DNA of 64,000 nt from NCBI RefSeq assembly GCF_032854445.1, contig NC_088303.1:14517501-14581500 (forward strand), written 5' to 3'. Position numbers and translations under genes: made by a program. Positions within the stretch are counted from its first letter, which is position 1; every line of letters starts with the position of its first letter. The notes under the pieces are model-generated. The model had not been told where the DNA came from. It saw only the letters and a program-made list of their open reading frames with translations, and did no database searches. Of the stretch, positions 3,525 through 60,800 are shown piece by piece. Origin of the DNA: Liolophura sinensis. Its lineage: Eukaryota > Mollusca > Polyplacophora > Chitonida > Chitonidae.

Positions 3525-21984
<18,460 letters not shown>

Positions 21985-22381
21985 CTAGCTCTCTGAGCAC
22001 ACCAACGTGTACCTGTCTACATTCACCTGATCTCTGGCATGTTGTAGTCAACCTATCTGAGGTACAGTTATACCCCATAGGTCCCATCCTAGCTCCCTGA
22101 GCATACTTCTGTGTACCTGTCTACACTCACCTGAGCTCTGGCATGTTGTAGTCCCTCCTCCAAGGCTCTCAGGGCCAACCTATCTGAGGTACAGTTACAC
22201 CCCATCAGTCCAATCCTAGTTCCTTGAGCACACCTCTGTGTACCTGTCTACACTCACCTGAGCTCTGGCATGTTGTAGTCCCTCCCCCAAGGCTCTCAGG
22301 GCCAACCTATCTGAGGTACAATTACACCCCATCAGTCCCATCCTAGCTCCCTGAGCACACCTCTGTGTACCTGTCTACACT
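21985..22381 (-). repeat. 127-bp tandem repeat copied from the last visible AGXT exon
   Basis: On the minus strand each unit starts near GATGGGACTGATGGGGTGTA, runs through the end of the AGXT exon (CTACAACATGCCAGAGCTCA) and includes its donor GTGAGTGTAGACAGG plus about 40 intron bases. CACCTG marks the same point at 22382 (the exon itself), 22255 and 22128, exactly 127 apart, and at 22024, where about 23 bases are missing. The copies keep an open AGXT-like frame (LMGCNCTSDRLALRALGEGL). Confidence 0.88.
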
Positions 22382-22384
22382 CAC

Positions 22385-25300
22385 CTGAGCTCTGGCATGT
22401 TGTAGTCCCTCCTCCAAGGCTCTCAGGGCCAGCCTTGCATTATCTGGGGTACAGTTATATCCCATCAGTCCCACCCTCCAGATTTTTCCTGCCAGATCAC
22501 CTAAACCACCAGCAATCTCAGTATTGTACCTGGTAAAAATAAAGTCCATCCTTTCATTCTTTTGATTTATTTCATTAATATTTAACAATGTATTCAAAAT
22601 TATTCCACTAATTCTTGTCAAATTTAGTTATATGGTTCTAAGCCACACACAAGATCATTTGTCTGAACACAATGATATTGTGGATCACTGGTCTGGGAAA
22701 GCATGGCAACTCACCGGGTACCTGATAAACCTCCCTACATAAAACCCCAGCCAACCACAATGGTTTTAGATGAAGTTCTATTCAGTTGTGTACCCTCACT
22801 GGACAAGGGCTAGTGGCCTGAATTCAGAGAGTCTCAGAACCCATTAGACTGCTCATCATTCTGGTTTCAAGGCAGGTTTACAGTAGAATGTCCAATCTAA
22901 CATCAAAACTAATCTCGTTTTTAACTTACTCTTTCATGGCAAAGTCAGACACAACTTTCCAGTTTACATCATCTGGGACTTTAATACCTGTCACTGTTGG
23001 CAACTGAATTGACTGAAACAAAGAGCAGAGTTACTGAATAAGAGGTGGGAAGTACCTTGTGTCATTTAAAATAAGAAGTATTTCTAAAGACTACATTACC
23101 ACACTTTCTGTACAAAGGGAAGGTAACAAACTCAGCACAAGACTATATCCGATTACCATTTTAACCTCCGTCTTATAAAACCTTTTTTTTTTGCAAATGG
23201 TGCACACAAAATAAAATTACTATAAAAATGTGATGACCAGTGCCTAAATACATTCAGCTGCACAGTATCTTAGCATTGTTTAAAGCATTGGTAAAGGACA
23301 ACAGTCGCTCTGGTTTCCTTTACACATAAACCTGACAGTAATCATGCAGGTCAAAACAACATCAAACATTAAACACTACCAGTAATCAAATAACTTGATA
23401 CATCAAAAAGGACAGTATTTTTCTTCTTCCTGTGTGTATGTTGCTTACTCTTTCAGTGTTTTAATAACAGTGACTTTAATATATATCGCCCCAGAATATT
23501 TGATTTCTTAAACACTGGAAGTGAAGCCTATCCTAAAAAGACGACCAGTACAGTGTGAGTACCACCTGTGTTTTCACCTACCTTATCTTTGACCAGCAGC
23601 TCCAGTCCTAGCCTCTCCAGTCCGTCATACAACACCTGAGTTACTTCCCTTTGTTTGGCCCACATGTTTTCTAATCCCTGGAGAAAAAAAGCATTTACCA
23701 TTTCTTACTTTGACCAAAAAAAAAAAAAAAATAACAATAGTTCTACAATACATGTGCTGTCTGAAAACAAGTAGATATGTGCCACAATCCAACCTACTTG
23801 TACATGTTAATCTATCTTTTCTGAAGTTTGTCTTGCACAGCACAATTCGAAAAAAACAACACATGCAGACACTGCCAGTTAGTGACAGGATTTACTTGCA
23901 CAGACATGGAGGTCAGCATGGGAGCTAATACAAAACTCTGCATCAAAACATAAAACCAAAACTAGGTTTTGTTCACAATTTATGTATGTTATGTAGGCCT
24001 TTCTGTTGCCTTAAATTTCCAGTTGTTATCATAAGTTTCTGTGAACTTTTGCTGATATAATTGTAGTGAAAATACAATAATATCATCCCTGGAACTAACA
24101 GAGCTACATGCACATACCTCCTCAGCTACTCTGGCCAGGCCTTCTCGGATAGCAAATATTGTACTGATGGGTGCAGTGTGGTGGTATCTAAAACAGAAAG
24201 TAAGCAGGTCACCAAATAGTAACTAATTTTAAACACAGCCACTGACTTATAGGAATTACTGCATATACAATGTCTTTATATTAGCCTGATTAAAAACAGG
24301 TAATACTTGAGATCCCCTTGCCGCCAATATCCCTATAGGCCACAGTGGAAATGAGAGGTTGATGGTTAGATGCATGGTCTTACATGAAGTTACCTCACAC
24401 CATTACGGCAGGTTGTTAAAAATCTATCTTTTACTTGCCCATGTTTGCTCCTCAAGCAAAACACATACATCTTAAACTGAATGCAGTTGTTTAGGTGAAC
24501 AGTTCTGGAGAACAGGGTCAAACATCAGTGAAATATGTAAAAGTAGTTGTAGAAGCCACATACAGAGAGTTTACCAAATATATAAAAAAAACATTTACCA
24601 GTTTCCTTGTTTTTGTTGGTAAACAATCCCAGGCAAGCACTGTACACAACATGGTATCAAGAATACGTTTGCACTCTGTTATGGCATGATGTTTAGAAAT
24701 TTTGAACACTAGTTTTCTTGTGACTATTTTCAGAATGGGAGTCTCTCCATGGATGAGGAGGCACGCATTGTAAGCGCGGCGCAATGACCAAGGAGCCTCC
24801 TCTTCCAGCTACCTGCAGATGGTTGTGCATTTTCCCGTGGACTCTTCCTGGTATCCTCTCACCATAACGCTAACCGCCGGCGTATAGGTGAAATGGTCTT
24901 GAAAACGGCATAAAGTACTAATCATATAAATAAATATTTTCAGAAATGGCGTTGTAAACCATCTATAAAGAGATTCTTGTTAAAAGTCAGTTCTGTAAAG
25001 TTTTGTCAATATGAACCATGATTCAGAACAAGACAAAAAAGATCTTTGGGACAATTTACTTCACCTAGACAAAGCTTCCAAATATATTTTTTCCTCACTT
25101 AATGATAAGTAGTATTACCTCCTTGGTTTGTCATCACAGCCCCAATAATTGGCTAATTCCATAGCATCAAAATAATATGACCTTGGCTTTGTTTTTCTGT
25201 TGAGAACCTTTTGTCTGCAGTCAAAATAAAGGTAGACTTTATAGCATCTCAGCAACAACAAAACCACCAAGAAAATGAGTTATCAATACAAGAATTTCAA

Positions 25301-28300
25301 TAAAACATTTAACACTTTGTCTTCTATACCTATGATTCTTATAAATATCAACTAGGTAGGCCTGTCAAATGCATGTTTGTTTATTTGTTTGCTTTCTTTA
25401 TCTTTGTTTTAAATTCCCTTAAATTTTTTAAAATTACAAATAACAATTCAGGAAACACCAGGGCCTCATCACATAAGTGAAAAATGATTCCTCATCCGTA
25501 GGTTTACATTTAAATGTCTGTCTCTTGTATGCCTGACATATGAAGGTTCTTAGCATTATTGTAACACCACGTTACTCATCTGTTTTCATGGAGTGCTTCA
25601 CTGTTCTAGGCATCACAGGCCTGCCACATTAACATGTACAGTAGTACAAATACCTGGCTCTTTCACTGTAGGAGATTGGACTAGCCCCAGGGGGTGAGCT
25701 GAGAACTTTCTGCGCCCCGGAGTAGAGACAGTCAATACCTGACAGGTTAGGAAACAAATAAGACAGCATCATCAGTTTTATATTATTTGTTTTTCCTTTG
25801 ATTGTTGTTTGATACCTAGATCAAGAATTCTTCCCATATACATCACTAACCTTTTATAGCGAGGCACTGACAAACTTTCAAACATGTGACGTAATGGTAT
25901 GCACACCATATTGGTGGAAGACAAGATAGTGTTCAGTGAACGCTAGACTGCAAAATGGCCACATGATTGACTTACCCCAAGCATCCATGAAGAGAGGGAC
26001 TCCACCCAAGGCTGCGACTGAGTCTACCACCAACAGGCAGTTATGTCTGTGAGAAAAATAACAATATTATATTAATGCTTTCTCAAAGTCTGAAGTACTT
26101 AGGCAAAACTATGTGATGCTCTAAAAAAATCAAACAGAAAAAAAGCAACAACGGGGAAAATCAGGGCAAAGCTTAACCAATGTTCATATAAAAACAACTT
26201 TTTGTAAAGTGTAAAATAACAAAGGGGTATGTCTAGACAAAACAATGCCCATCAAAACAAATTTAGAAATTCTGAGAGTCAACTCCATAATCTTCAAGGT
26301 AAACTGACCAATTTATAAAGGCCAAACAATGGCAAAACAAAACTAAGAAATGGCTAGAGTGGTTCAGTTGTAAATTCCATTCATAAAGTATGATCATCTT
26401 TTAAGTCAAACCTTTCTCAGAACCGTGTTAATCCATAATCAAACAAATATATAATTGTGTGGTCAAATATAGTTGCAACTAAAATGATTAACACAATACT
26501 CTAAGTAAACACAAATTTCAGTGACACAATGACAAGTCCCTCATTGATACACTGTAATTGCTTGGCAGTAACCCAGTATTCCAATTAACATATTCACATT
26601 CTTTTCAAATTTTTAAACTTTGTATTGTTCATGGTTATTTATAGAATATTCCCTGACCTATCCGTGCAAACCTTCTACTCACTTGTGACACAACTCCCCA
26701 ACCCCCTCCAAAGGGTGACAGGTGGACCCTGATGATTCCCCCCTGGGTCAGAAACAACGCCGCTGGCTTGTGCTCCTTCAAGCCCTGGTAAGATTTAAAT
26801 TCGCAGGTTTTTCATTACTCAGTCTTAAATTATCAGTATCCTTTATTAAATTGCAAATATCTGTATTGTTATTACATGACTGTACACAGGGTCAGCTGGT
26901 CTGCACTTCTTGTCACTCTCTCTGTTGAATACATTTTCCGAAAGCAGAAAGACTTTGAAAACGCTATGAGTTCTTTCTCTTGAATCCCTGGATATCCCAT
27001 GTATATTACTGCTAATTACTAATGTACCAAAGGATTTCCAGTTTTTAACTGCACTAGAGGCTAGTTTGTAGCAAAAAGCCTCCTTAATTTTCCAATAATA
27101 ATCCGGCAGATAAAAGGTTTTGGAAATATTAATGCCACAATTTGTTCTTGTCTGAACATTATCATTATTAAAGTTAATTGAGGAGTTTCGAGTTTGAACT
27201 CTTTTGTCGCTAAAATAAAAATAGTCCTTTCATATCATATAACTTGTCAAATATGTTAAGTAACATTTGTTGACATTAATTTACTTATCAGCTGTCTCAT
27301 CATTTTTTAGATACACAACTGACATCGCTATTCTTCAGGAACTTCTAAAGCTCACAAAATCTTTCTTCCTCAATCCTCTTCGTTGTTTGTTTATTTTAAA
27401 CCCTTTTTCAGGTACCCATGTTATAATAAATATAATCAAAAATAGTTGTCTAACATTTTCTACCTGTTCTATTTCATCCATACTAAACACATGTCCCTGA
27501 GGTTTGGTCATTCTTTGAACCACACAACCTGCAAAATTAATAAGATGTATTCAGATCTAGCATATTTTCCATTTTATTTATTGTCAGGATCAGGGGAGAT
27601 AACCCAAAACACAAGTGGCAATCAAGGGGAGACAACTTAGCAACCTTAGATCTCCCACAATGAATAGTGTCAAATTGTGACAATAACAAAGTAAATTGTA
27701 TTTCATGAAAAACATTTCTGTCAAAGCATGTGATAAAGCAAAATTAGGAAATTAATGTTGAATATTTCCAACGATGGAAAGTACAAAGTAAATCAGCTTT
27801 GGAACTTTTAGATGTACGAAATAGCTAATTAGCATGACAACAAAGCCATGAGAATCTGGGATCAATACTGAGAAAAATAATTACTTATCTATATATATAT
27901 GTGTTGATATTAATAATACATGTATATTGAATCTGTTTAGACACACACAGAACTCACCATTTCTGTCTGCCATTTCTGCAAACCTTTGCCCCCAGAGCCC
28001 ATTAATACCTACAAGCGCCACCTCCCCAGGTTCTAATAGATTACAACATGCGGCTTCCATAGCACCATGACCTGTTATCAAAAGACATTAACAGCTTAAA
28101 CACAGGTGATTCAATCCTTCTTAAACTTCAAACGTATGTGAGACATCTGTGAGCAGTCGACGGGTGGTCGTGGGTTTTTCCCAGGCTTTCATCCCAGAAT
28201 ATTGTTGTCATCCTATAAATGGAATATTATTCTGTACGGTGTAAAACATGAATGAAATAAATGAATACAACTCAAACAACAGTTGCTTGATGCAACTGTT

Positions 28301-31300
28301 TACTCATCAGCATGAATGGATATCAGTATTTAGGCATTTAATGTATGAATATGAAATCAAAATGTTGAATTCTAAATAAATATGGATATGACATTTCTCA
28401 ATTAGTGGAACCGCTGAAATGTTACAATAAAATGGCTGAATAACGAAAGTAACAGTCTTTTGTTTTCGGTTTGCTATACACTTGTCACATACAAGAGTAG
28501 GTTAGTTTTATATGGAAACGACCTATTAACCAAACTGAGACAGATATTTTGTAGGTGATATCGTAATTTTCTGAGAGCTGCTGCACATGACATATGTTCA
28601 TTCGTCCTTACCTGCAGCAGATATGACATATGTCCATTCATTCTTACCTGCAGCAGATAAGGCATATGTCCATTCATTCTTACCTGCTGCAGATATGGCA
28701 TTTGTCCATTCATTCTTACCTGCAGCAGATATGACATATGTCCATTCATTCTTACCTGCAGCAGATATGGCATATGTAAATTCATTCTTACCTGCAGCAG
28801 ATATGGCATATGTAAATTCATTCTTACCTGCTGCAGATATGACGTATGTCCATTCATTCTTACCTGCTGCAGATATGGCATATGTCCATTTATTCTTACC
28901 TGCAGCAGATATGACATATGTCCATTCATTCTTACCTGCTGCAGATATGGCATATGTAAATTCATTCTTACCTGCAGCAGATATGACATATGTCCATTCA
29001 TTCTTACCTGCAGCAGATATGGCATATGTCCATTCATTCTTACCTGCTGCAGATATGGCATCTGTCCATTCATTCTTACCTGCAGCAGATATGACATATG
29101 TCCATTCATTCTTACCTGCAGCAGATATGGCATATGTCCATTCAAAGCTTACCTGCAGCAGATACGACATATGTAAATTCATTCTTACCTGCAGCAGATA
29201 TGGCATATGTAAATTCATTCTTACCTGCTGCAGATATGACGTTGTCCATTCATTCTTACCTGCTGCAGATATGGCATATGTCCATTTATTCTTACCTGCA
29301 GCAGATATGGCATATGTCCATTCATTCTTACCTGCTGCAGATATGGCATATGTAAATTCATTCTTACCTGCAGCAGATATGGCATATGTAAATTCATTCT
29401 TACCTGCAGCAGATATGGCATATGTAAATTCATTCTTACCTGCTGCAGATATGGCATATGTTCATTCATTCTGACCTGCAACAGATATGGCACACGTCCA
29501 TTCATTCTTACCTGCAGCAGATATGACATTCTTACCTGCTGCAGATATGGCATATGTCCATTCATTTTTACCTGGAGCAGATGGGGCATAAGTAAATTCG
29601 TCCTTACCTGCAGTAGATATGGCATGTGTTGATTCATTCTTACCTGCAGCAAATATGGCATATGTCCATTCATTCTTACCTGTTGCAGATATGTCCATTC
29701 ATTCTTACCTGCAGCAGATATGACATATGTCCATTCATTCTTACTTGCTGCAAATATTTCATATGTTCATTCATTCTTACCTGCAGCAGATATGGCATAC
29801 GTCCATTCATTCTTGGTCTGGAAAACATACTGAATTCCGGCTTTTGTTTCATCAAGAATCTGAAACATACATTTCACATATTGTGTATTTAAGGGTTTAA
29901 CTGAGTCAAATCTTGAGAATGCGCAACATGCGAGAGACTTGATGAGGTACGAAACAAGGTTCAGCGATATCGGGCTACGCAACAAACACCAAGACAAAGA
30001 TGTTAAAGTCTATTCTACCCCAAAATTGAAGAAAATGTGGGAAAAACTGCATATTTCATGATGCCATTCTGTTTTACTTCCTCCTCAGAGGTCATGCATT
30101 TTAGACCAATCAACGGCAAGCTTAGGCTGTAGCAGTTGACCAATATAGCGTATGTATGACACTGTGTCTCATTGTCGCGTGACGTAGGAATGTAAAAGTT
30201 TACTGTACATGTATTATGATGTCATACTGCTGAGCTCAGATTGGAAGGTCTTGAAGCAAATATCTATAAACTGTGCGAGATAATACTTTCGTCACTGAAG
30301 GAAATTCCAACAGTTCAATCTAACAAGTAAACAAACTCAAATTATTTTACTTGTAGACATAAACAGATTGAAATGATATTACCCAGGGTGGTAAACGTAC
30401 CGCCAGGTGTGTTGCTGACACACTCGATGTTGTTTGAATGGTCATCTCAATTTAATATGTATATTTGCACACGGCCCTTAATTAATAGCGTGGTAGAATT
30501 ATATAGAAATTACCTTCAATATTGTTTTCAACATCATTTGTGTCATGCCCCATAAGTGTTTTCTTCTATCCGCCTAGTCTTATAGGTGCTTTATGCTTGG
30601 TGCAGTATCACTAGAACACCATGCTAAGAACACCCAGTAAAACAACAATGACACCAACTAGTTCATGGCAAATCACTTTATGATCACTTTAAAATAATGA
30701 AATACCTATTTTTTTTTACAATTTTGAAGTCTTTCATCCAATCCAACCGAAGATTCTGCCTCTCACAAGCAATGCTTTGACTATATGCAGTGAGGTCAGA
30801 TACATGCATCAATATTTGCTATATTAAACACATCGGCATTTCCTGTCAGACTGTTATGCCTACTGTACATCCATATACATTATGAGCAGTTAATCTATAA
30901 CGTAGACAGGCAGTAACATTTCTTCTTAGATCCAAAAATGCAATTATCAGAGAAATATCAGGGTCAGATGTTCATTTTCTAGACAAAATTGGGGTATAGT
31001 TAATACAAATGAACTGACCATTACTTACCTGTTTTATTTCATGCAAGCTCAACACTTTTCAGGTTTAACAATGATGGATCAATTTTGCAATGACAATGAA
31101 AGAATTTGTGATAAATACAATGTGATAAACACACTTTCATATCAACCATAGATATCAGTCTGAGATTGTCATACCAAAGATACAATGTCTGATATTAAAA
31201 TGGGTATATAATAATCTCTACAATGTACTGAATAACAACAAACAACAAAAAACATCACATCAAAACAAGTTGCTGGAACACAGTAATGTGAAAGAGGATA

Positions 31301-45860: not shown

Positions 45861-48800
45861 GTTCTATCTTTTTGACATTTATACATTGTAGTTACAGCAT
45901 TATTTGTTTGAGATTCTCTTAAGTATATTTCAATCCACTTGAAAATATGTACATACAAATAGCCAAACACTTGTCAATATACATGTATACCGGCTTGCAT
46001 TGTGTATTGTATTAGTTGTGGTTTGATTTTTCTCTGTTATAAAGTTCTACTGTTGAAGTACATGTACCTGTATTTAACTTACTGGCAATGTGATGTGATG
46101 TCTGAATTTTGAATAATCGAATAATGGTAAGTTAAAAACTGCATAAAACACTAGGGCGCCATCTCTCTAACATTTACATCTCTAGATAAATCTTTGAATT
46201 GTTTCTTTGTATTAAAATCATGAATGCATGCATATTTATGATCAGAGACTTAAGGGTACCGTTTTGACTTTATAGCCGATATTCCACTTACATGTACATG
46301 AAAAAGTCATTGTATTGCTAATATACCTTTTCCTTCTGTTTGACAGGACAAGAATTTTATGCTGGGGACCAAATGGGTGAGTCTTCATGCTATATGGATC
46401 ACCTATGAAAAGTTATGATGTACTGGCATCGCGGGTACATGAAGATTTCTGAATCGTGATCAAACCTCTGCTCAGTCCAGGGCGACTTGCACAAAGCCTA
46501 AGTTGATTGTAAATAACTAAGATCTCCATCGTACTCTTAGCTGACAATGGACACCCCCTTGCACAACGTTTTTCTCTGTTGTATTTTGGTTTAGGTGAAT
46601 TTGATGAAGATGAGAACATCTATGAGTCAATGTACCTTCAGCCTCTGCCAGGTGATAATGAGTATGATTCTGATGACATTTCATGGAGCAGTGACGAATT
46701 TGAGTCCTACGAGGATAGCATTCACAATGAGGCTGTCCCTAAGGTCGCGCCTGAGGTCGCACAACCAGCGACAGTTATTATGGGACCTCCTGCGTCTCGA
46801 GTCCGCAAAATTCATATTGCTCATGGTTTGGAGGAACCTCAGGTGAGCTTGATAGTTAATGACAGATGTGTATGTGGAAATGTGTAGTGCCCTAATTCCT
46901 CAACCTTTTCACATATGCAACTGCAACTTTAAGTGCAATTTATTCAGATTTATAATTACATTTTGGAGACAAAACTACATTGGCCAATGGAAGGGCTTAA
47001 AACAAGTGTAATTTTGTGAGTCTACACAAAGTAATATTTTCAGAATATGCTTGAAAAACACCATATGTATCATGCGAAAAGATTGAAGAATTACACTGGT
47101 CACAGATGTCTGTGAAGAAATGTGTAGAAGTTCTTTCATCAAATTTACATCAGTCATTTATTTTGAAGCTGAAGATTTTGAAGATTGTTCACAGGAAGGC
47201 TAATGTACATGCAAATAAAGGTAGAGAATACGACATTTTCAGTCTGTGTTGTCGGAAATGAAAGGTGGCAGTAGGTCATGGCATAGATATATTTTTCAAA
47301 ACAGGGTTAAATAGCTTTGACCAGATGCACCAGGTGCTGGTCAAAGCATATCCTAAATTACTGAACAAATTTGGCTAGTTGATTGTAACTTTTGATGCAA
47401 TTTGAAAATGAAATTCATAAGACTTTGAGAAGTAAAATATATTGTTTAGGAATGGACACATATTTGCTTACCAGAAATTATGAAATAGCCTGTCCAGGTA
47501 ACATTGCACAAATACGCCAAAACATGCTCTACATCTGTGGTTGAATTTGTTGAAGATTTAGGGTAAGGCCTTTCCGTGAATATCCACTTGTTTGATGTGG
47601 ACTTCAGGGACATTCAGAGTTCTTTCCCTTGTCTTGTATTTCAAGGCAAACTTCTGGGAGCCATAACTATACATACTAGATGCATGTGTACGTATGTGGC
47701 CAATGAGGTTTGAATGTACAAAGGCACAAGATCTGTTCAGGGGGTGGATGAAGAATACCTGAACAGTAGAAATCAAAAGCATGTGTATTCCACATTTTCA
47801 TTTTTTTCATTTCATTGATTTCATGTATCACCTGTTACACTATAGCTTTCACTCATGTCCGTGATTGAATTACACTTGTATCCGTCATTGTTGGTAGATT
47901 TGTCACCTTAATTATTCTTGATCTAATTTATGACATCATGACGTTATTTTCTCTTCTGATGTACAGTACCCTAGCTTGCTTCGTAGACTGAAGGAGAGTT
48001 TTAAAGGTTCAGCTGATTTATCCAGTGGGGAAGAAGACAGCCCATGTTTACCTGTGGAGATTTGTGACATCAAGCATCCACCACCTGTCCTGCCCCCTCT
48101 GCCAAGTGGACTCACCACAAACCAAGTAAGTTGGCTGGAAATACAAAGAGTCAATTAATATCCAATTAAATCCTGTTAAAACTAATAGCTGGTGAATAAA
48201 AGTTAAATCTGCAACAAAGTATATTTTTAATGGGGTACCGGCAGATTTTCCTCTCATAAAATTAGAACTTGCACGTCACAAGTCCTTTGTTGCATGACGC
48301 AAAACATGTTGCGTTCTGCACTTTCATCTGTGACATATTTGGTCTACCTGCTGTGACATATTTGGTCTGCCCACTGTGATGTATTTGGTCTGCCCACTGT
48401 TACGTATTTGGTCAGCCCGCTGTGATGCATTTGGTCAGCTCATTGTAACGTATTTGGTCTGCCCACTGTGATGTATTTGGTCTGCACACTGTGACGTATT
48501 TGATCTGCCCACTGTGACATATTTGGTCTGCCCACTGTGATGTATTTGGTCTGCCCACTGTGACGTATTTGGCCTGCCCATTATGACCTATTTGGCCTGC
48601 CCAGTGTGAGGTATTTGGTCTGCCCACTGTGACGTATTTGGTCTACCCACTGTGACGTATTATTTGATCTGCCCACTGTGACGTATTTGGTCTGCTCACT
48701 ATAACGTATTTGGTCTGCCAAGTGTGAAGTATTTGGTCTGCCCATTGTGATGTATTTGGTCAGCCCACTGTGACGCATTTGGTCTGCCCACTGTGACATA

Positions 48801-51800
48801 TTTGGTCTGCCCACTGTGATGTATTTGGTCAGCCCGCTGTGACGCATTTGGTCAGCTCGCTGTGACGTATTTGGTCAGCCCACTATGACGTATTTGGCCT
48901 GCCCATTATGACCTATTTGGTCTACCCAGTGTGAGGTATTTGGTCTGCCCACTGTGACGTATTTGGTCTGCCCACTGTGACGTATTTGGTCAGCCCGCTG
49001 TGACGCATTTGGTCAGCTCGCTGTGACGTATTTGGTCTGCCCACTGTGACATATTTGGTCTGCCCACTATGACATATTTGGTCTACCCACTGTGACGTAT
49101 TATTTGATCTGCCCACTGTGACGTATTTGGTCTGCCCACTATAACGTATTTGGTCTGCCCACTATAACGTATTTGGTCTGCCCAATGTGATGTATTTGGT
49201 CTGCCCACTGTGATGTATTTGGTCTGCCCACTGTGACATATTTGGTCTGCCCACTGTGACGTATTTGGTCTGCCCACTGTGACGTATTTGGTCAGCCCAC
49301 TGTGACGCATTTGGTCAGCTCGCTGTGATGCATTTGGTCTGCCCACTATGACCTATTTGGTGTGTCCAGTGTGAGGTATTTGGTCTGCCCAGTGTGATGT
49401 ATTTGGTCTGCCCACTGTGATGTATTTGGTCAGCCCACTGTGACATATTTGGTCTGCCCACTGTGACGTATTTGGTCTGCCAACTGTGACGTATTTGGTC
49501 TGCCCACTGTGATGTATTTGGTCTGCCCAGTGTGATGTATTTGGTCTGCCCACTGTGACGTATTTGGCCTGCCCACTGTGACGTATTTGGTCTGCCCACT
49601 GTGACGTCACGCTGTTGATACTGCAGTGGAATGTTCAGTGCCACTGAAATGATGTAAGATGTCCCACTTCGGACTTCTGCGGGTATCACATTAACAGTGT
49701 TAAGTGTGTTTATTTTCAAAATTGACATCTGATAATTACTGCTGCTATTATTACTTTTGTCATGGGAAGACTTTTGTGTAATAGATGCACCTGTGCATGT
49801 CAAGTTGAAACAGTTTATCGGAAAATTCATAACGTTTATATTTATTTCTTGTTTTAGGTGAAGAGACGACATGCTATTGGTGTGCTAATTGACAGTGAGA
49901 AATCATACATTGCCTCATTGCAGCGTCTGCTTGATGTAAGAGGTTTTTTTGCATTCAGGCTCTAAAATTTTTAAAAAGTTTAAAAAGTACTTAAGAAATA
50001 TTGCATGGATTGAGCTCAGGTATTGCAGACATTCAGAGCAAATTAGGGGGAGATGGGGGATGTTCCATCATTGATTCGTGGTGTGCATATTAAACACCAT
50101 AAATTACAAAATTCATGACTTAGTGTTTTGTGTATTAGAATCAATGTTAAAGTAAATGGTAGGGGTGGAAGTTGAAAAAAAGACCTGTTACTCACAAGGT
50201 GTGTATTTAATTTCTAGATTCTTTTGCAGTCATTGGTCATTCTATCTTGATGACAACAAGTGGTCAACATTGCCCATTTGCATACATGTACGTGTAATCT
50301 GACGTTAAGTTACAACTTGGCTTCCAAAAATGTTGTGAATATTATATCTCTACGTCACATGTGGCAAAGTTTTTCTGTACATGTAGCTCGCCACTGGCTA
50401 GTAGTTTGTTCCGGGCACTCTCCTTTGATACAACTGAATGCCATGGTGTAAGTGAAATATTCTTGAATAATGTTGAACTACAGTTAAAGAAGTATATTTC
50501 TGGTTGGTACTGTACGTGTGAAGTTTTTTTGATCATTTCACAGTGTGGGACTACTATGGACCAATCAGTCACTTGTATGTGTATTTGTTTATTGGTTTCA
50601 GGACTTTAAGGAGCCCCTGTTGGAAATCCCTTCCTTACAGCGAGGCAAGGTACGAGTCGAGCTGGTGAAAGCAAAGGATATCCTCCAGTACCATCGTATG
50701 TTCCAGATAGAACTTGCGGAACAGGTGAAGATGTGGCACGCCCAGGAGAAAATTGGAGATGTCTTCACAGCTTCGGTAATGCACTCCACATATTTCCCCT
50801 TATACCCTTACTTTCATTGTTCATGGGGCCTTTGTGGCAAGAAATGTGGGACGATGTATGTGTGGCCTGACATGATGTTTCCAGGAGACTGATTTAATAG
50901 GGGAGTTTTAAGTTGGAAGTCTTTGTTATCAAAGGTAAAAACCGTCCTACTGTGTTGTGTGGTGAAAAATGTTAGGTAACCTTTGCTGACAATAATATGC
51001 CGATCACCTGTTTCACCTTTTTCCAGGAGCACAAATGACACCTCTTTCCTGTATGAACTTGTCAAGTTCATCAACATTCAGATTCTCAATCTTGTCTATC
51101 ATTCCTCCTTTCTAAAGTACTGTTTATGACACTTTTTTCAGATGCCCGTGTTATAGTGAATGTGATCAAAAATAGTTACCTAACATTTCTGTCAGGTCAC
51201 ATGATAGAGTTGGACTTTTTGTACCTTCGACGATAAAAGTTCCAACTTGAAAGGTGAGAAAGTAAGCCAGTACCTTGCCAAAGTTTTGGGGTTTACTCCC
51301 AAGACCCATGAATTTCCTCCGCTCACAGGACATGCCATATACATCACAAGTGAAGAAGTAAATACCGGTATACATATAAAGGAATCCAGTGAGAAAATTG
51401 TGAGTGCTGGCTACTGTAGCCAAAGTGAAATGGTTAAAATGTAATAAACATATATCTCTACAGTACATAGTAAATATCTTCAAAATGTTGAATGATATTT
51501 CACTTTCGTTGTAGTTCTCCAAAGCCATAGTCTTAGATGCGTACAGCGAATATGTCAACAATTTTACTGCAGCAATGGAGGAGATAAAAAAAATGACACG
51601 ACAACGAGCATCCCTCAGGGACTACCTCAAGGTAAGATGACCTGTAGAATTAAGGAGGGACCACCATGTTATGAAACCTCTCTTTGCAAGTTTAAGCTAT
51701 AAGATACTTTTTTTTTTTGTTTTTCATCAGCAAAATTGGATAGGATACCTAATATTTTTCCTAGTTCCTATGTTTTTTGAACCTTGGTGTTCTTACCATT

Positions 51801-54800: not shown

Positions 54801-57800
54801 GCCCATGGAAAACCTTGATTGTTAGGAAATTTAGAAAACGTACGAAAATACATCTGTGTAGTTCCTTGCTGTTGGAATATGTGTATCCGTTCAAAATTGA
54901 TACATTTGTGGAAGATCATTTGTATTCCCTCAATCATTATGGCAAGCAATTCTGTATTTACTAATTTATTTATTTGATTGGTGTTCAACATCGTACTCAA
55001 GGATATTTCACTAACATGACGGCGACCAGTATCATGGTGGGAGGAAACCTGGCAGAGCCAGGGGGAAATCTACAGCTAGCCCCAGGTTGCTGTCAGGCCT
55101 CCCCATGTATGCGAGTAAGAATGTTTGCCATATGTGAAAAAGTTTGTGAGTAAATTGCCAGAGGTTGGTGGTCTACCTGTGGCACTCTGTGGTTTTCTCC
55201 ACTTGTAAAACTGACAGCCATTAAAGAAGTGAAAAATTCAAGGAAATGCATTAAACATCTACCAAATTAATCATACTGGTAACCCATAATTGAATGTTTG
55301 CTATCTTTGTAAGATTTTTAATGCTGTGTTTTGTACAGAGAATCCTGATGAAGATCCCTTTCATCTGGTCACAGATTTGAGTGAACTTCATCATGACTTC
55401 AGCGTCCTGAGCAACGTTGTTGCACTGGTCAGCGCCCTGAAAAGGTCTTACACGGTAAGTACCAGTTAATTAGTTGTTAAAAGGCCATGGATTTCTAAAG
55501 TTTGGCAAGTTTTTGAAAGGACATGTTTTAGTTTAGAGCTATTCAGGGTGCAAAATGTTCACATGTTAAGCTGTAAATTTCGCTTGTGACAGGTTGAATG
55601 AAAACTTACCTGGCACATGTCATAAGTACAAAATCCAGATACTCATCAGTGGAAAATAAATAATGTATATTTAACGTGCATATCACAGTGAGTTATGTAT
55701 GGACTTTTATGGGCTCTCCCTACTTGGCTGAACATGTAGGTCTTATTCATATCTGCAAACACTTATGATATAAACATGTAGATTTTATACATCAAAATGG
55801 CATGTATGACAAGATGGTGCTTGTCATTATTCTGTCACCGTGTCCACTGTAGGGGTTGTCGGAGGAATCTGTCCACGCGCTGATCCGAGACCTTCAGCGG
55901 ATCATCCACGTGAAAGACGAACAGCTGAGACTGGTGAAGAGCTGCTCCATTACATTGTCGGTGCCGTGTAGGACCGTTACTGGGGGGTGAGTGCTGTTTG
56001 GGATCTTGACGGGGGAGGTGAAGATGTACATGTAGGGGATGATCACTGGTATACGATGTTAAAGAGAGGCGTATCTTATTATTATTTATTTGATTAGTGT
56101 TTTATGCTATACTCAAGAATATATCACTTACATGTCTACGACAGCAGCCACCATTATAGTGGGAGGAACAGATGGAAGCATAATAAAGTGTTATGTAGAC
56201 TGATAACAGTGTAGAATGGTAGAAAGGGAGTAAATCGTGTTTTAATGGAGAGATAAAAGTGGAGTATTAATGATGTGTAGAGGTGAAAGGGGTGTACAGC
56301 ACCGTGGCTGAGGTGGGGTGAGGGAGTGTATCTCAAAATGGGCGTGTACAATATGGATTGGTCTAGGGAAGATAGAAGGTTAGGTCAGAAATAACGCACT
56401 GATGTCTGGAAGCAAAAAATTTAAGTTTGAATGCATTTTAAAATCCCTGATTTTCCAATGGTGGATATTATTTATTTATTTATTTATTTATTTATTGGAT
56501 GAGTGTTTTATGCCATACTCAAGAATGTTTCACTTACACGCCGGTAGCCAACATTATGGCAAAGCCCCTGGAAAACCCACAACCATTCCCGGCTTGCTGA
56601 CAGATCTTGCCATATACGACTGGAGACGAAGCCATCATGAGCTGGATTTAAACTCACAGCAACCAAAACAGGATATTAAACTACATGTATGCTGTAAAGG
56701 TGTGAAATATGTTTTATAATTTTTTAATTCTAGGGATAAAAAATGGCTCGGGCGCTATGCCAATTCAACATTGTATGACTGAAATTCTGTGAGTAATGTC
56801 TGTCTATGATGCTATCTATTGTCCAGGATGGGCCGAACTAAATATGTGTTCCACACTCAGTCTCCATCTGCTCGGGAAGATTGGTGTTTAGACCTACAGA
56901 TTGCAAAGATGGGTTTAGGTGAGAAATGTGATCTGATGTAGATTATAAAACTGGTAGATGGCATTACACTCTTCAAGGCTGTTTATCTTGCAGTGTTACC
57001 TGTTGTGAATTTTACTCCTTGAAGTCTAACTTCATGTATGAGTCGAATCTTAAACAATCCTTTAGAAACTTATCAAAACTGCGATCTTTTTTAACCTTTT
57101 CATTTGTTCACAAAACTTAAATCTAATGACTAGAGGTGATCACCAGTTGACTTGTTAAATTTCCATCTTGACACGGATGTCCCACATGTTGAATGGCTTG
57201 ATACAGATGTCCCACATGTTGAATGGCTCAATAGGGATGTCCCACATGTTGAATGGCTTGACACGGATGTCCCACATGTTGAATGGCTTGACACGGATGT
57301 CCCATATGTTGAATGGCTTGACACGGATGTCCCACATGTTGAATGGCTTGACACGGATGTCCCACATGTTGAATGGCTTGATACGGATGTCCCACATGTT
57401 GAATGGCTTGATATGGATGTCCCACATGTTGAATAGCTTGATATGGATGTCCCACATGTTGAATGGCTTGATACAGATGTCCCACATGTTGAATGGCTTG
57501 ATATGGATGTCCCACGTTGAATGGCTTGATACAGATGTCCCACATGTTGAATGGCTTGATACAGATGTGCCACATGTTGAATGGCTTGATACGGATGTCC
57601 CAGATGTTGAATGGCTCGATAGGGATGTCCCGCATGTTGAATGGCTTGATACGGATGTCCCACATGTTGAATGGCTTGATACGGATGTCCCACATGTTGA
57701 ATGGCTTGATACAGATGTCCCAGATGTTGAATGGCTTGATACGGATGTCCCACATGTTGAATGGCTCAATAGGGATGTCCCACATGTTGAATGGCTTGAT

Positions 57801-60800
57801 ACGGATGTCCCAGATGTTGAAGGGCTTGATACAGATGTGCCACATGTTGAATGGCTTGATACGGATGTCCCAGATGTTGAATGGCTTGATAAGGATGTCC
57901 CACATGTTGAATGGCTTGATATGGATGTCCCAGATGTTGAAGGTCTGATACGCATGTCCCACATGTTGAATGGCTTGATAAGGATGTCCCAGATGTTGAA
58001 GGTCTTGATACAGATGTCCCACATGTTGAATGGCTTGATAAGGATGTCCCACATGTTGAAGGTCTTGATACGCATGTCCCACATGTTGAATGGCTTCATA
58101 CATGTACATATACATCTACAACTGTACACGTTTTTTGACTTGGTTCAATCTTGTACAGTGTTTCATAGAGGCCCATACATTATGACGGCAGTCGTCATTA
58201 TTGCATAATGTTTTGTATTTTTGCTTACATTTAAGTGTGAATTAGAGCATTTCTATAATCTTTTACAGAGGCCCGTAATAACCCTGGCTGGGACATCCCC
58301 CATGCTGTGAATGGGATCTCGAGTGTGATGCCAGCACTGTTCATTAAGGCTTTACCTGTTGACGTGGTACGCCATTATACTAAGGTAACTAATCATGTGT
58401 TTTTAGAAGTGTTTTTGAGACTGTTTCTAATGTTGGGTTTTGTCAATAGCAGAATGCCCTGCCTCTGAATGAGATTGTCCATAAAGCACATGTATGTACA
58501 CTTAAAATCTCAGATTTTTGAAAATATGTGTAACATTTCATAATTGGAAAGTTTGCCAGAATAATTTGCCACAGGTCATTGGTGCATGTACACTGGCTTC
58601 TCTGCTTTCCTCGACCCACGATATACTGGCAAAGGGATAGTGCTCTGCATCCTGTCCTACGTGTATCTGTCAAGATGTTCAATAATTCCTGAACCCGCGT
58701 GTAATACGGATCACATCGAAAATTCATGGGATTTCTCCTTTACAGCCAGTCTGTAAAACGTCAGCAAATGCTCTCTGGGCAGTGGTAAGTAAGAAGAGAA
58801 TGACACTCTTTCTGTGAGTGCCTGAATGATTTCTGATATCTATTTGTTGTACCAGGTGCGTTGTGCTGTCCCTGTGTTTTTATCAACCCCGTCAAACATA
58901 GGTGTGGGGATGCAGCACCTGTGGGTCTGCAACACGACGGCCACCAGGGGGCAGGTCTCCATCGTATCCATCCACTCCAACCGTCCTCGGGTCATCGAGT
59001 CGTACCAGGCGTGTGACTGTGAGATCGTTTGTGTTGAGAATGTTCCTGGCTACTCTGCAGAGAATGATCCGTACTCATTCAAAATGGACACTGTGTGGAT
59101 GGTCACTGTCAAGGCTGAGTATGTGTCTCAGATGTGGGAAATATACAGTAATACACCAACCTACTTTCCAAACTATTGCGTAAAGGCAAAAAAGTGAACT
59201 TTTTTCCCCTAAATTTAATTGATTGGGGTGACCAAAATGTCATGTTGGGTAATGAGAAAATTTGCATTAAATCATGAATTAATTGTACATGTACACATTT
59301 TGATGTATGCTGTAACTGACAGCTAATCAGTAGTTTTCAATACCAAATGTATTTTCCAATAATAATGCAATTTATGGAATAGAAACTTGTACCAATAAAT
59401 TTGTTTTGTTAGAGCTAAATTTATTTGTTCGTTGTGTAAGTAGTGTGAGAAAATTCAACCAGTAATTGAAATAGCTTGAAATGAAATGAGATGTGTACCA
59501 TTATGTTTTGATCAGGGTGTTAATCTATCAGCTCACAAGTTCTGACGGACTCACAAAACGCCAGCCCTCTGCCACATTTGCCCTGCCCTCACCGTGCTCC
59601 TATCTGAAGTACGTAGATGAGTGTGTGTTTGCTGCTCTGGACAATGGTCAGATGGCTGTGTACACCAGAGATATTGGTGAGTGAAATTCACGTGTGGGTG
59701 GTTGTGTCTAAGCTATGCTCCTAAATTTGTGCCTGCTGTAATTATCAAGATGATCTTCACCTGCCAGTGCCTAACTTCTGGCCCTGATGTTTGCTGTTTT
59801 CATATCTTGTCCTGCCTTAGTTTACTATTCTAATCTTGACAAGGAGAAGATGGTGATCTCTATGCTTATAATGTGTATTATTCCAAAGGCAGTGTATTTC
59901 AAGATTACAGGAATAATCTGCTCTAGTAACACAGAGTTTATTTATATATTCAATTGGTGTTTTACGCCGTACTCAAGAATATTTCACTTATACGATGACG
60001 GCCAGCATTATGGTATGAGAAAAACGGGCAGAGCCCGGGGGAAACCCACAACCATCCACAGTTTGCTGACAGACCTACCCAGCATGAGCTGGACTTGAAC
60101 TCACTGCATTTGCGAGAGGCTTCTGGATTAGTAGGTTGCGCTAGCCAACTGAGCCACAGAGACCCCCCAGTAACACAGAGTTATAGGTTCCAAATGTATT
60201 GGTTAATAAATATGTATATGATTGAGGGTTAACACTGTAGGCTTACTCGAGATGATTTCACAGGTTTGGGCTGTGGTGAGGTTTATGTCGTGGAGAAATA
60301 ATGATCTACAGTTGATTCTTGAGAAAGAATTGACAAGGCAAAGAGATGCGGAAACGTGTTTGTAGTAACATAACAACTATCGATTCTTTTTAAAGAATCT
60401 CAGGGTAGCATGGTTGATCTGTCGTGACATGAAGTTTTAGTGTAAGAGTGTTAGAGCTTTCAGTCACTGGGAGTCCAGTCAGTTGTAGTCTATATAGATT
60501 ACTACTGGGTGTGTAAGATTTTGGGCAGTGATTAAGTCTATGATTAGTTATGAGGGAAAGTAAATCTGAATTGATTGAAGCTTACATATAATCTAATAAT
60601 CTAATATATAATCATATAATCTAGTCTGACAGTAGATTATACAATCTCTGTCACATTGACATAACCTGGCCTCGAGATTTCCATGTGCGTAATCAGAATG
60701 CCACAAATAAGACCCACCAGTTCACCTTGCTGTTCATATTTGTGACTAAGAGAATTGATGACGCTACTCTGCCTCTTCTCATACTGGCAGCATTTGGTGT

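Follow-up and report, generated by a model that had tools for sequence, protein, structure and literature searches.

The third intron of an AGXT gene in the window, by which we mean the whole stretch of 64,000 nucleotides analysed, opens with a long tandem array whose units carry copies of the donor of the preceding exon. This raises the question of whether the extra donors serve splicing, whether the intron itself arose from the repeat, or whether the array is merely carried along. We consider it probable that it is a tolerated "mirage", a by-product of tandem duplication of a sort that occurs more widely in this mollusc genome.

An exon end copied in tandem

The protein assembled from this minus-strand gene proved to be kin of serine-pyruvate and alanine-glyoxylate aminotransferases (381 residues aligned without gaps in a PDB search), with E values of about 1e-135 against PDB alanine/serine-glyoxylate or -pyruvate aminotransferases, in agreement with the AGXT identity proposed by a sequence-only reading that preceded this analysis. 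We take PDB entry 1h0c to be human AGT (AGXT). AGXT was found at one locus in the assembly, all 14 matches of a protein search of its 609 Mb lying inside the window. The exons were set by hand from splice signals and reading frame, giving a putative gene model in which the positions of exon 1 and of the last exon are guesses. Exon 6 (26683-26784, 102 nt) contains a run of six G at 26738-26743 and is one base over frame, which points to an error of the assembly or to a broken allele of AGXT. The features around intron 3 are as follows:

29781..29859, minus strand: AGXT exon 3, 79 nt, with acceptor tttcag and donor CAG/gtaaga, placed by splice signals, frame and the homology of the assembled protein
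29781..29814, minus strand: last 34 nt of exon 3, the exonic source segment, with 35/36 identity to the unit consensus when GT is included
28587..29780, minus strand: mirage array in intron 3, 34 head-to-tail pieces, mostly of 36 nt (TRF and segmentation)
29767..29769, minus strand: in-frame TGA in the first unit, replacing a Trp codon (segmentation)
28072..28586, minus strand: rest of intron 3, with no recognisable unit and an acceptor unlike the unit
28126..28270, minus strand: dispersed-repeat fragment, SINE-like by appearance, with other copies 70-82% identical among the matches listed
27958..28071, minus strand: AGXT exon 4, beginning GTCATGG

Exon 3 is entered in phase 0 and left in phase 1. 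TRF described the repeat as a 36-bp period in 34.6 copies over 28587-29814, the exonic copy included. When the stretch 29780-28560 was cut at donor-like sites, 34 pieces resulted. A length of 36 nt is shared by 29 of them, four others measure 24, 29, 35 and 37 nt, and the last is decayed. The pieces start with a donor-like GTAAG, save for one GTAAA and one GTCAG. The existence of the array was thus upheld, while the earlier figure of some 30 decoy donors had to be corrected to 33 extra donors. As the data come from one haplotype, the pieces of 24, 29, 35 and 37 nt point only indirectly to length instability.

The consensus of the 29 units of 36 nt departs at a single position (ACG to ACA) from the sequence formed by GT and the 34 bases that end exon 3, so the statement that the two are equal was right at 35 of 36 positions and wrong at one. 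A realignment of the unit to 29781-29814 had been named beforehand as a check on its origin; with GT included the match stands, the donor register is exact and the array adjoins the exon, which bears out the derivation of the unit from the end of exon 3 and its donor. The last 60 nt of exon 3 scored 32 when aligned with the initial 1500 nt of intron 3, against a maximum of 14 in 100 shuffles. Matches to the exon number 29/36 in the unit beside it, 28 in the sixth unit and 28 at the far end, and inner units are nearer to the exon sequence than some units near the edge. That the exon 3 copy itself lies near the consensus is expected if coding constraint holds it. All 14 matches of a unit-dimer search, which skips very common words, fell within the array.

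Judged from its letters, the array is clearly a mirage, that is, a minisatellite-like duplication of an exon/intron boundary in high copy number: it is a minisatellite-like tandem repeat, its unit is a duplicated boundary with the splice site (34 exonic nt and GT), and in our gene model it adjoins the authentic boundary, the first unit beginning at the exon 3 donor at 29780. An assembly artefact, or an ordinary satellite resembling exon 3 by chance, is scarcely credible as an alternative. The surplus base beside the six G of exon 6 does make small errors, or a broken allele, possible in this region; against both readings, however, stand the variation of the units in sequence and length, the unit-dimer search, which revealed no second locus carrying the unit, and a likeness to the exon well beyond that of the shuffles.

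The array would have been seeded by a tandem duplication that began within AGXT exon 3 and ended shortly beyond the 5' splice site of that exon, and we infer that it then grew to about 34 units inside the intron by slippage or unequal exchange. Each junction between copies would rebuild a donor, because GT is followed there by AAGA, the opening of the duplicated exon segment.

Extra donors, reading frame and the first-unit stop

Of the 33 extra donors, 27 are identical to the true one; the other six comprise two CAGGTAAGG and one each of CAAGTAAGA, CAGGTAAAA, CAGGTCAGA and CAGGTAAGC. The claim that all units offer CAG/GTAAGA accordingly stands for 27 of them and fails for six. Such equality would suit a regulated or copy-number-dependent splicing switch, in which distal donors add peptide units or trigger decay, the role that the sequence-only reading had offered as one possibility. 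The same equality means that a preference for the first donor could not be put down to the nine-base motif; the likely reason for such a preference is the position of this donor beside the exon.

The decoy donors had also been described as in frame, which turned out not to be the case: the distance from the true donor is a multiple of three for only 2 of the 33, the frame being lost because the units of 29, 35 and 37 nt shift the phase. The TGA expected in place of Trp in the unit next to the exon is present, starting at 29769, upstream of all extra donors. As the distal donors are mostly out of frame and the stop lies ahead of every one of them, splicing from any of them would meet that TGA and give a truncated protein rather than one with added peptide units. 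The stop would thereby turn distal donor use into a decay switch, a variant of the same proposal. However, among eight exon-end arrays in this genome, a stop precedes the second donor in six, near the roughly five expected by chance (our own arithmetic).

The nine columns that form the donor count among the least variable of the unit, with four variants; four or fewer are found in 3 of the 36 rotations, the donor rotation included (random-column p 0.0495). This could hint at constraint and would suit a switch, and human repeats at exon-intron boundaries can indeed give alternative splicing, according to the available part of PMC2812944. On the other hand, the amphioxus mirages seemingly splice normally, as far as the accessible text of PMC3087553 goes. 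No clear bias towards unit lengths divisible by three was detected among nine arrays of this kind in the genome, three of them based on an open frame only: units of 36, 39, 93 and 78 nt are divisible, versus those of 127, 83, 44, 85 and 91 nt, which are not. With 2 of 33 donors in frame and a stop before them all, the switch is unsupported and we regard it as very unlikely.

The other half of the functional idea, in which the array is tolerated only as long as the first donor prevails, is the better one, and the tolerated by-product that we favour builds on it. The array would persist since exon 3 keeps a donor of its own from which splicing can proceed; we infer the choice of this donor and the neutrality of the array.

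Intron 3 and a second exon-end array

The ends of 13 AGXT exons were scanned against the first 1500 nt of their introns, and copies were found after exons 3 (score 32) and 13 (score 49) only, the scores of the other 11 exon ends remaining within those of shuffles. The latter array and its source are:

22385..22529, minus strand: AGXT exon 13, from which the second array derives (gene model and exon-end scan)
22049..22477, minus strand: second exon-end array, 127-bp period, 3.3 copies, repeating the exon 13 end with CAG/GTGAGT (TRF and exon-end scan)

Reading through past exon 13 leads to a stop at +39 nt, so that this array may sit in the 3' UTR; in our gene model it lies in an intron, or in the 3' UTR if its donor is unused. 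When exon starts were compared with intron ends in the reverse scan, the sole exon to rise above shuffles was the last one, whose position is a guess (13 versus a maximum of 12). The motif CACAGAAATGAAGCA occurs twice in 21490-21700, near the possible last AGXT exon, as a possible duplicated acceptor.

In human numbering, and with exon 6 taken one base below its 102 because of the frame surplus, the mollusc introns from the one after exon 2 onwards lie at c.165, 244, 358, 423, 524, 595, 680, 776, 846, 942, 1025 and 1170. We take human AGXT to have boundaries also at 358, 524 and 1071, and to our knowledge it has no introns at c.1025 and c.1170. Boundaries at 423, 595, 680, 776, 846 and 942 are implied by the variants listed in the available part of PMC4299716, and one at c.166 by Table 2 of PMC9508166, the part of that source used here, which places c.166, c.188 and c.292 all in exon 2. 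By our own count, with c.358 and c.524 taken as human boundaries, 9 of the 12 mollusc introns occupy human positions to the base. Intron 3, at c.244, is absent from human AGXT, since c.166, c.188 and c.292 all lie in human exon 2.

This position bears on a further possibility, that intron 3 was born from the duplication. A coding segment of 36 bp with CAGGT at its end would have doubled in an uninterrupted exon, the junction giving GTAAGA as donor and the second copy giving the acceptor, and the array would have expanded afterwards. The place of intron 3 inside human exon 2 (PMC9508166, Table 2) agrees with this, and so do the two arrays, which occupy 2 of the 3 introns counted as unshared with human (chance 3/66 = 0.045). 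However, the second array may belong to the 3' UTR, the count presumes that human AGXT has no intron at c.1025 or c.1170, and the human lineage may have lost intron 3. Exon 3 ends in CAG and exon 4 opens with GT, in keeping with such a birth; a GT opening is nevertheless common in this gene (4 of the 12 exons E2-E13). The donor side of the published route to intron gain is present, with a duplicated segment containing AGGT and with CAG/GTAAGA at the junctions. An acceptor derived from a downstream copy was not found: the acceptor of intron 3 scored 3 against the unit, while the other acceptors of the gene scored 3 to 8; nor did the 515 bp left in the intron show a relic of the unit, their best score being reached by 194 of 500 shuffles. 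The dispersed repeat within this part has at least 40 other places in the genome (525 first-look candidates).

As the 3' part of intron 3 lacks the unit and contains a diverged dispersed repeat, birth by duplication is at most a hypothesis, although a mirage-to-intron model has been published for amphioxus globins (PMC3087553) and novel introns from tandem repeats are reported for human genes (PMC2812944), each according to the portion of the paper available. We think it unlikely that intron 3 arose in this way. A broader form, in which minisatellites at exon boundaries keep supplying this mollusc with new introns and intron 3 began as the 36-bp duplication of coding sequence that even now occupies most of it, its original acceptor later replaced by inserted DNA, seems equally doubtful.

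Donor-carrying arrays elsewhere and known systems

To see whether such arrays are general in this genome, we looked for triplets of consecutive donor motifs at set gaps, with reversed or shuffled motifs as controls. The matches numbered 559 for CAGGTAAGT at gaps of 60-90 (146 reversed), 682 for CAGGTGAGT at gaps of 95-125 (55 reversed) and 1090 for CAGGTAAG at gaps of 16-46 (321 reversed); a shuffled 8-mer control gave 196 (240 reversed). For CAGGTGAGT and CAGGTAAGT the whole-genome excess over the reversed controls is stronger than the ratio of single 9-mers, with the proviso that matches within one array are not independent, and arrays were therefore counted on contig 1 instead. At least 14 CAGGTAAGT arrays were present there among the matches listed, which reach 94.4 of 96.4 Mb, versus 7 reversed-motif arrays when matches within 3 kb were grouped (9 ungrouped). 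As this ratio is close to that of the single 9-mers (9837 CAGGTAAGT versus 4862 reversed), a special attraction of arrays to donors is not needed, and we rejected special seeding at donors. Uniform, tolerated seeding at exon ends suffices for these small numbers, the array counts coming from contig 1 only.

The 14 CAGGTAAGT arrays listed on contig 1 were then taken as a sample, with PDB searches for all except L015, L016 and L025 and Pfam searches for all except L016. In 3 of the 14, the array adjoins an exon identified by homology and the copied stretch ends on its last base; a fourth is of the acceptor-side form:

contig 1: DNA-PKcs exon-end array (Pfam 1.4e-15, PDB 1.2e-12), 66/71 nt
contig 1: RPC1 exon-end array (PDB 3e-9, no Pfam match), 32/32 nt
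contig 1: GH31 (glycosyl hydrolase 31) exon-end array (Pfam 3.5e-13, PDB 9.5e-25), 28/28 nt
C1:17654700-17658000, other strand: L019, acceptor-side array of a cryptochrome-like gene (PDB 1.2e-23)

In L019 the intron end with its acceptor and the first exon bases are repeated at a period of 91 (33/36 nt in the alignment). Three more arrays, L015 (53/56 nt), L021 (58/60 nt) and L022 (26/30 nt), show a copied end with an open frame and an acceptor, without firm homology: the L021 exon matched a kinase weakly (Pfam 0.13, PDB 0.02), and the L022 exon, for which PDB and Pfam returned nothing, presumably resembles selenoprotein O. An exon end was not seen at four of the 14 (L011, L013, L014 and L024), and no call was made on it for three (L016, L023 and L025). 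The unit of L025 (C1:94386200-94388900, about 28 copies of 91 bp) is EGF-like (Pfam EGF_2 0.0022, below the cut-off) and ends in a donor.

An earlier batch of ten contig 1 stretches, taken from the CAGGTAAG matches listed, all within 4.3 Mb of one contig end and sharing L011, L013 and L014 with the sample, yielded no clear exon end (L010 was marginal, 19/22). L009 (C1:1373500-1383400), near the contig 1 end, is a minisatellite with a 54-bp unit in about 123 copies; the locus contains 99 CAGGTAAG, and no exon was seen there. None of five control arrays (L026-L030; shuffled motif, contig 1, among the matches listed) was shown to be a mirage. L029 is a repeat within an open frame, and L028 (C1:67159700-67163000), which adjoins a long open frame and has GTGAGT in its unit, is possibly a mirage; its exon-copy test failed (17/21, off the exon end), with the exon start set arbitrarily. 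Within the window, TRF arrays of period 10 or more cover 5471 of 64,000 bases, and long minisatellites occur at 9711-10360, 48328-49607 and 57167-58101, their TRF consensus lacking CAGGTAAG.

Arrays would thus arise often in this mollusc, occasionally over an exon boundary, and be tolerated where a working splice site is left. That mirages occur in several mollusc genes suggests that a high rate of tandem duplication, not chordate biology, lies behind them. The AGXT array offers material for studying the choice that the spliceosome makes when dozens of donors are equal, and the arrays together for asking whether exon-boundary repeats feed intron gain. Among the open-licence papers listed in our literature searches we saw no mollusc report under the name mirage or with such anatomy, and the available part of a Conus paper (PMC3862624) contains nothing on exon boundaries.

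The closest relatives are the amphioxus mirages, minisatellite-like duplications of intron/exon boundaries, described in the accessible parts of PMC3087553 and PMC3902484 for Adh3, the globins BflGb6 and BflGb9, troponin C and others, with PGBD5 similar but imperfect. There, too, many tandem units bearing splice signals adjoin a true boundary, and donor-side and acceptor-side forms are both known; RT-PCR suggests that regular splicing is undisturbed, and a route to intron gain was proposed by the authors (PMC3087553). In contrast to them, the present host is a mollusc, the AGXT array has 34 pieces versus 6 and 3 in two BflGb6 haplotypes, and its unit is almost wholly exonic (34/36 nt). The host was assigned to the molluscs through PF14830, a haemocyanin domain known as molluscan, of which the assembly has 8 matches in a single contig 8 cluster and 14 control genomes have none; amphioxus was thereby rejected as host, and a lancelet-type fluorescent protein also drew no match in the assembly, which is weak evidence taken alone. 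In human genes of segmental duplications, variable tandem repeats at exon-intron boundaries accompany novel introns and alternative transcripts (PMC2812944, available part). Minisatellite units of about 30 bp occur at exon-intron boundaries both in that set, which includes 27 intron modifications, and in the AGXT array; the human set, however, is defined by copy number between recent paralogs, averages about 4 repeats and often has alternative transcripts, whereas AGXT lies at one locus. As in the potato RdRp case (PMC4974935, available part), the duplicated exon segment ends in CAGGT and gives a junction donor, but the AGXT acceptor is not copy-derived and birth of intron 3 is no more than a hypothesis. 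With ordinary intronic minisatellites the array shares its tandem units, edge decay and length variants; it differs from them in that its unit was copied from the adjoining coding exon together with the donor.
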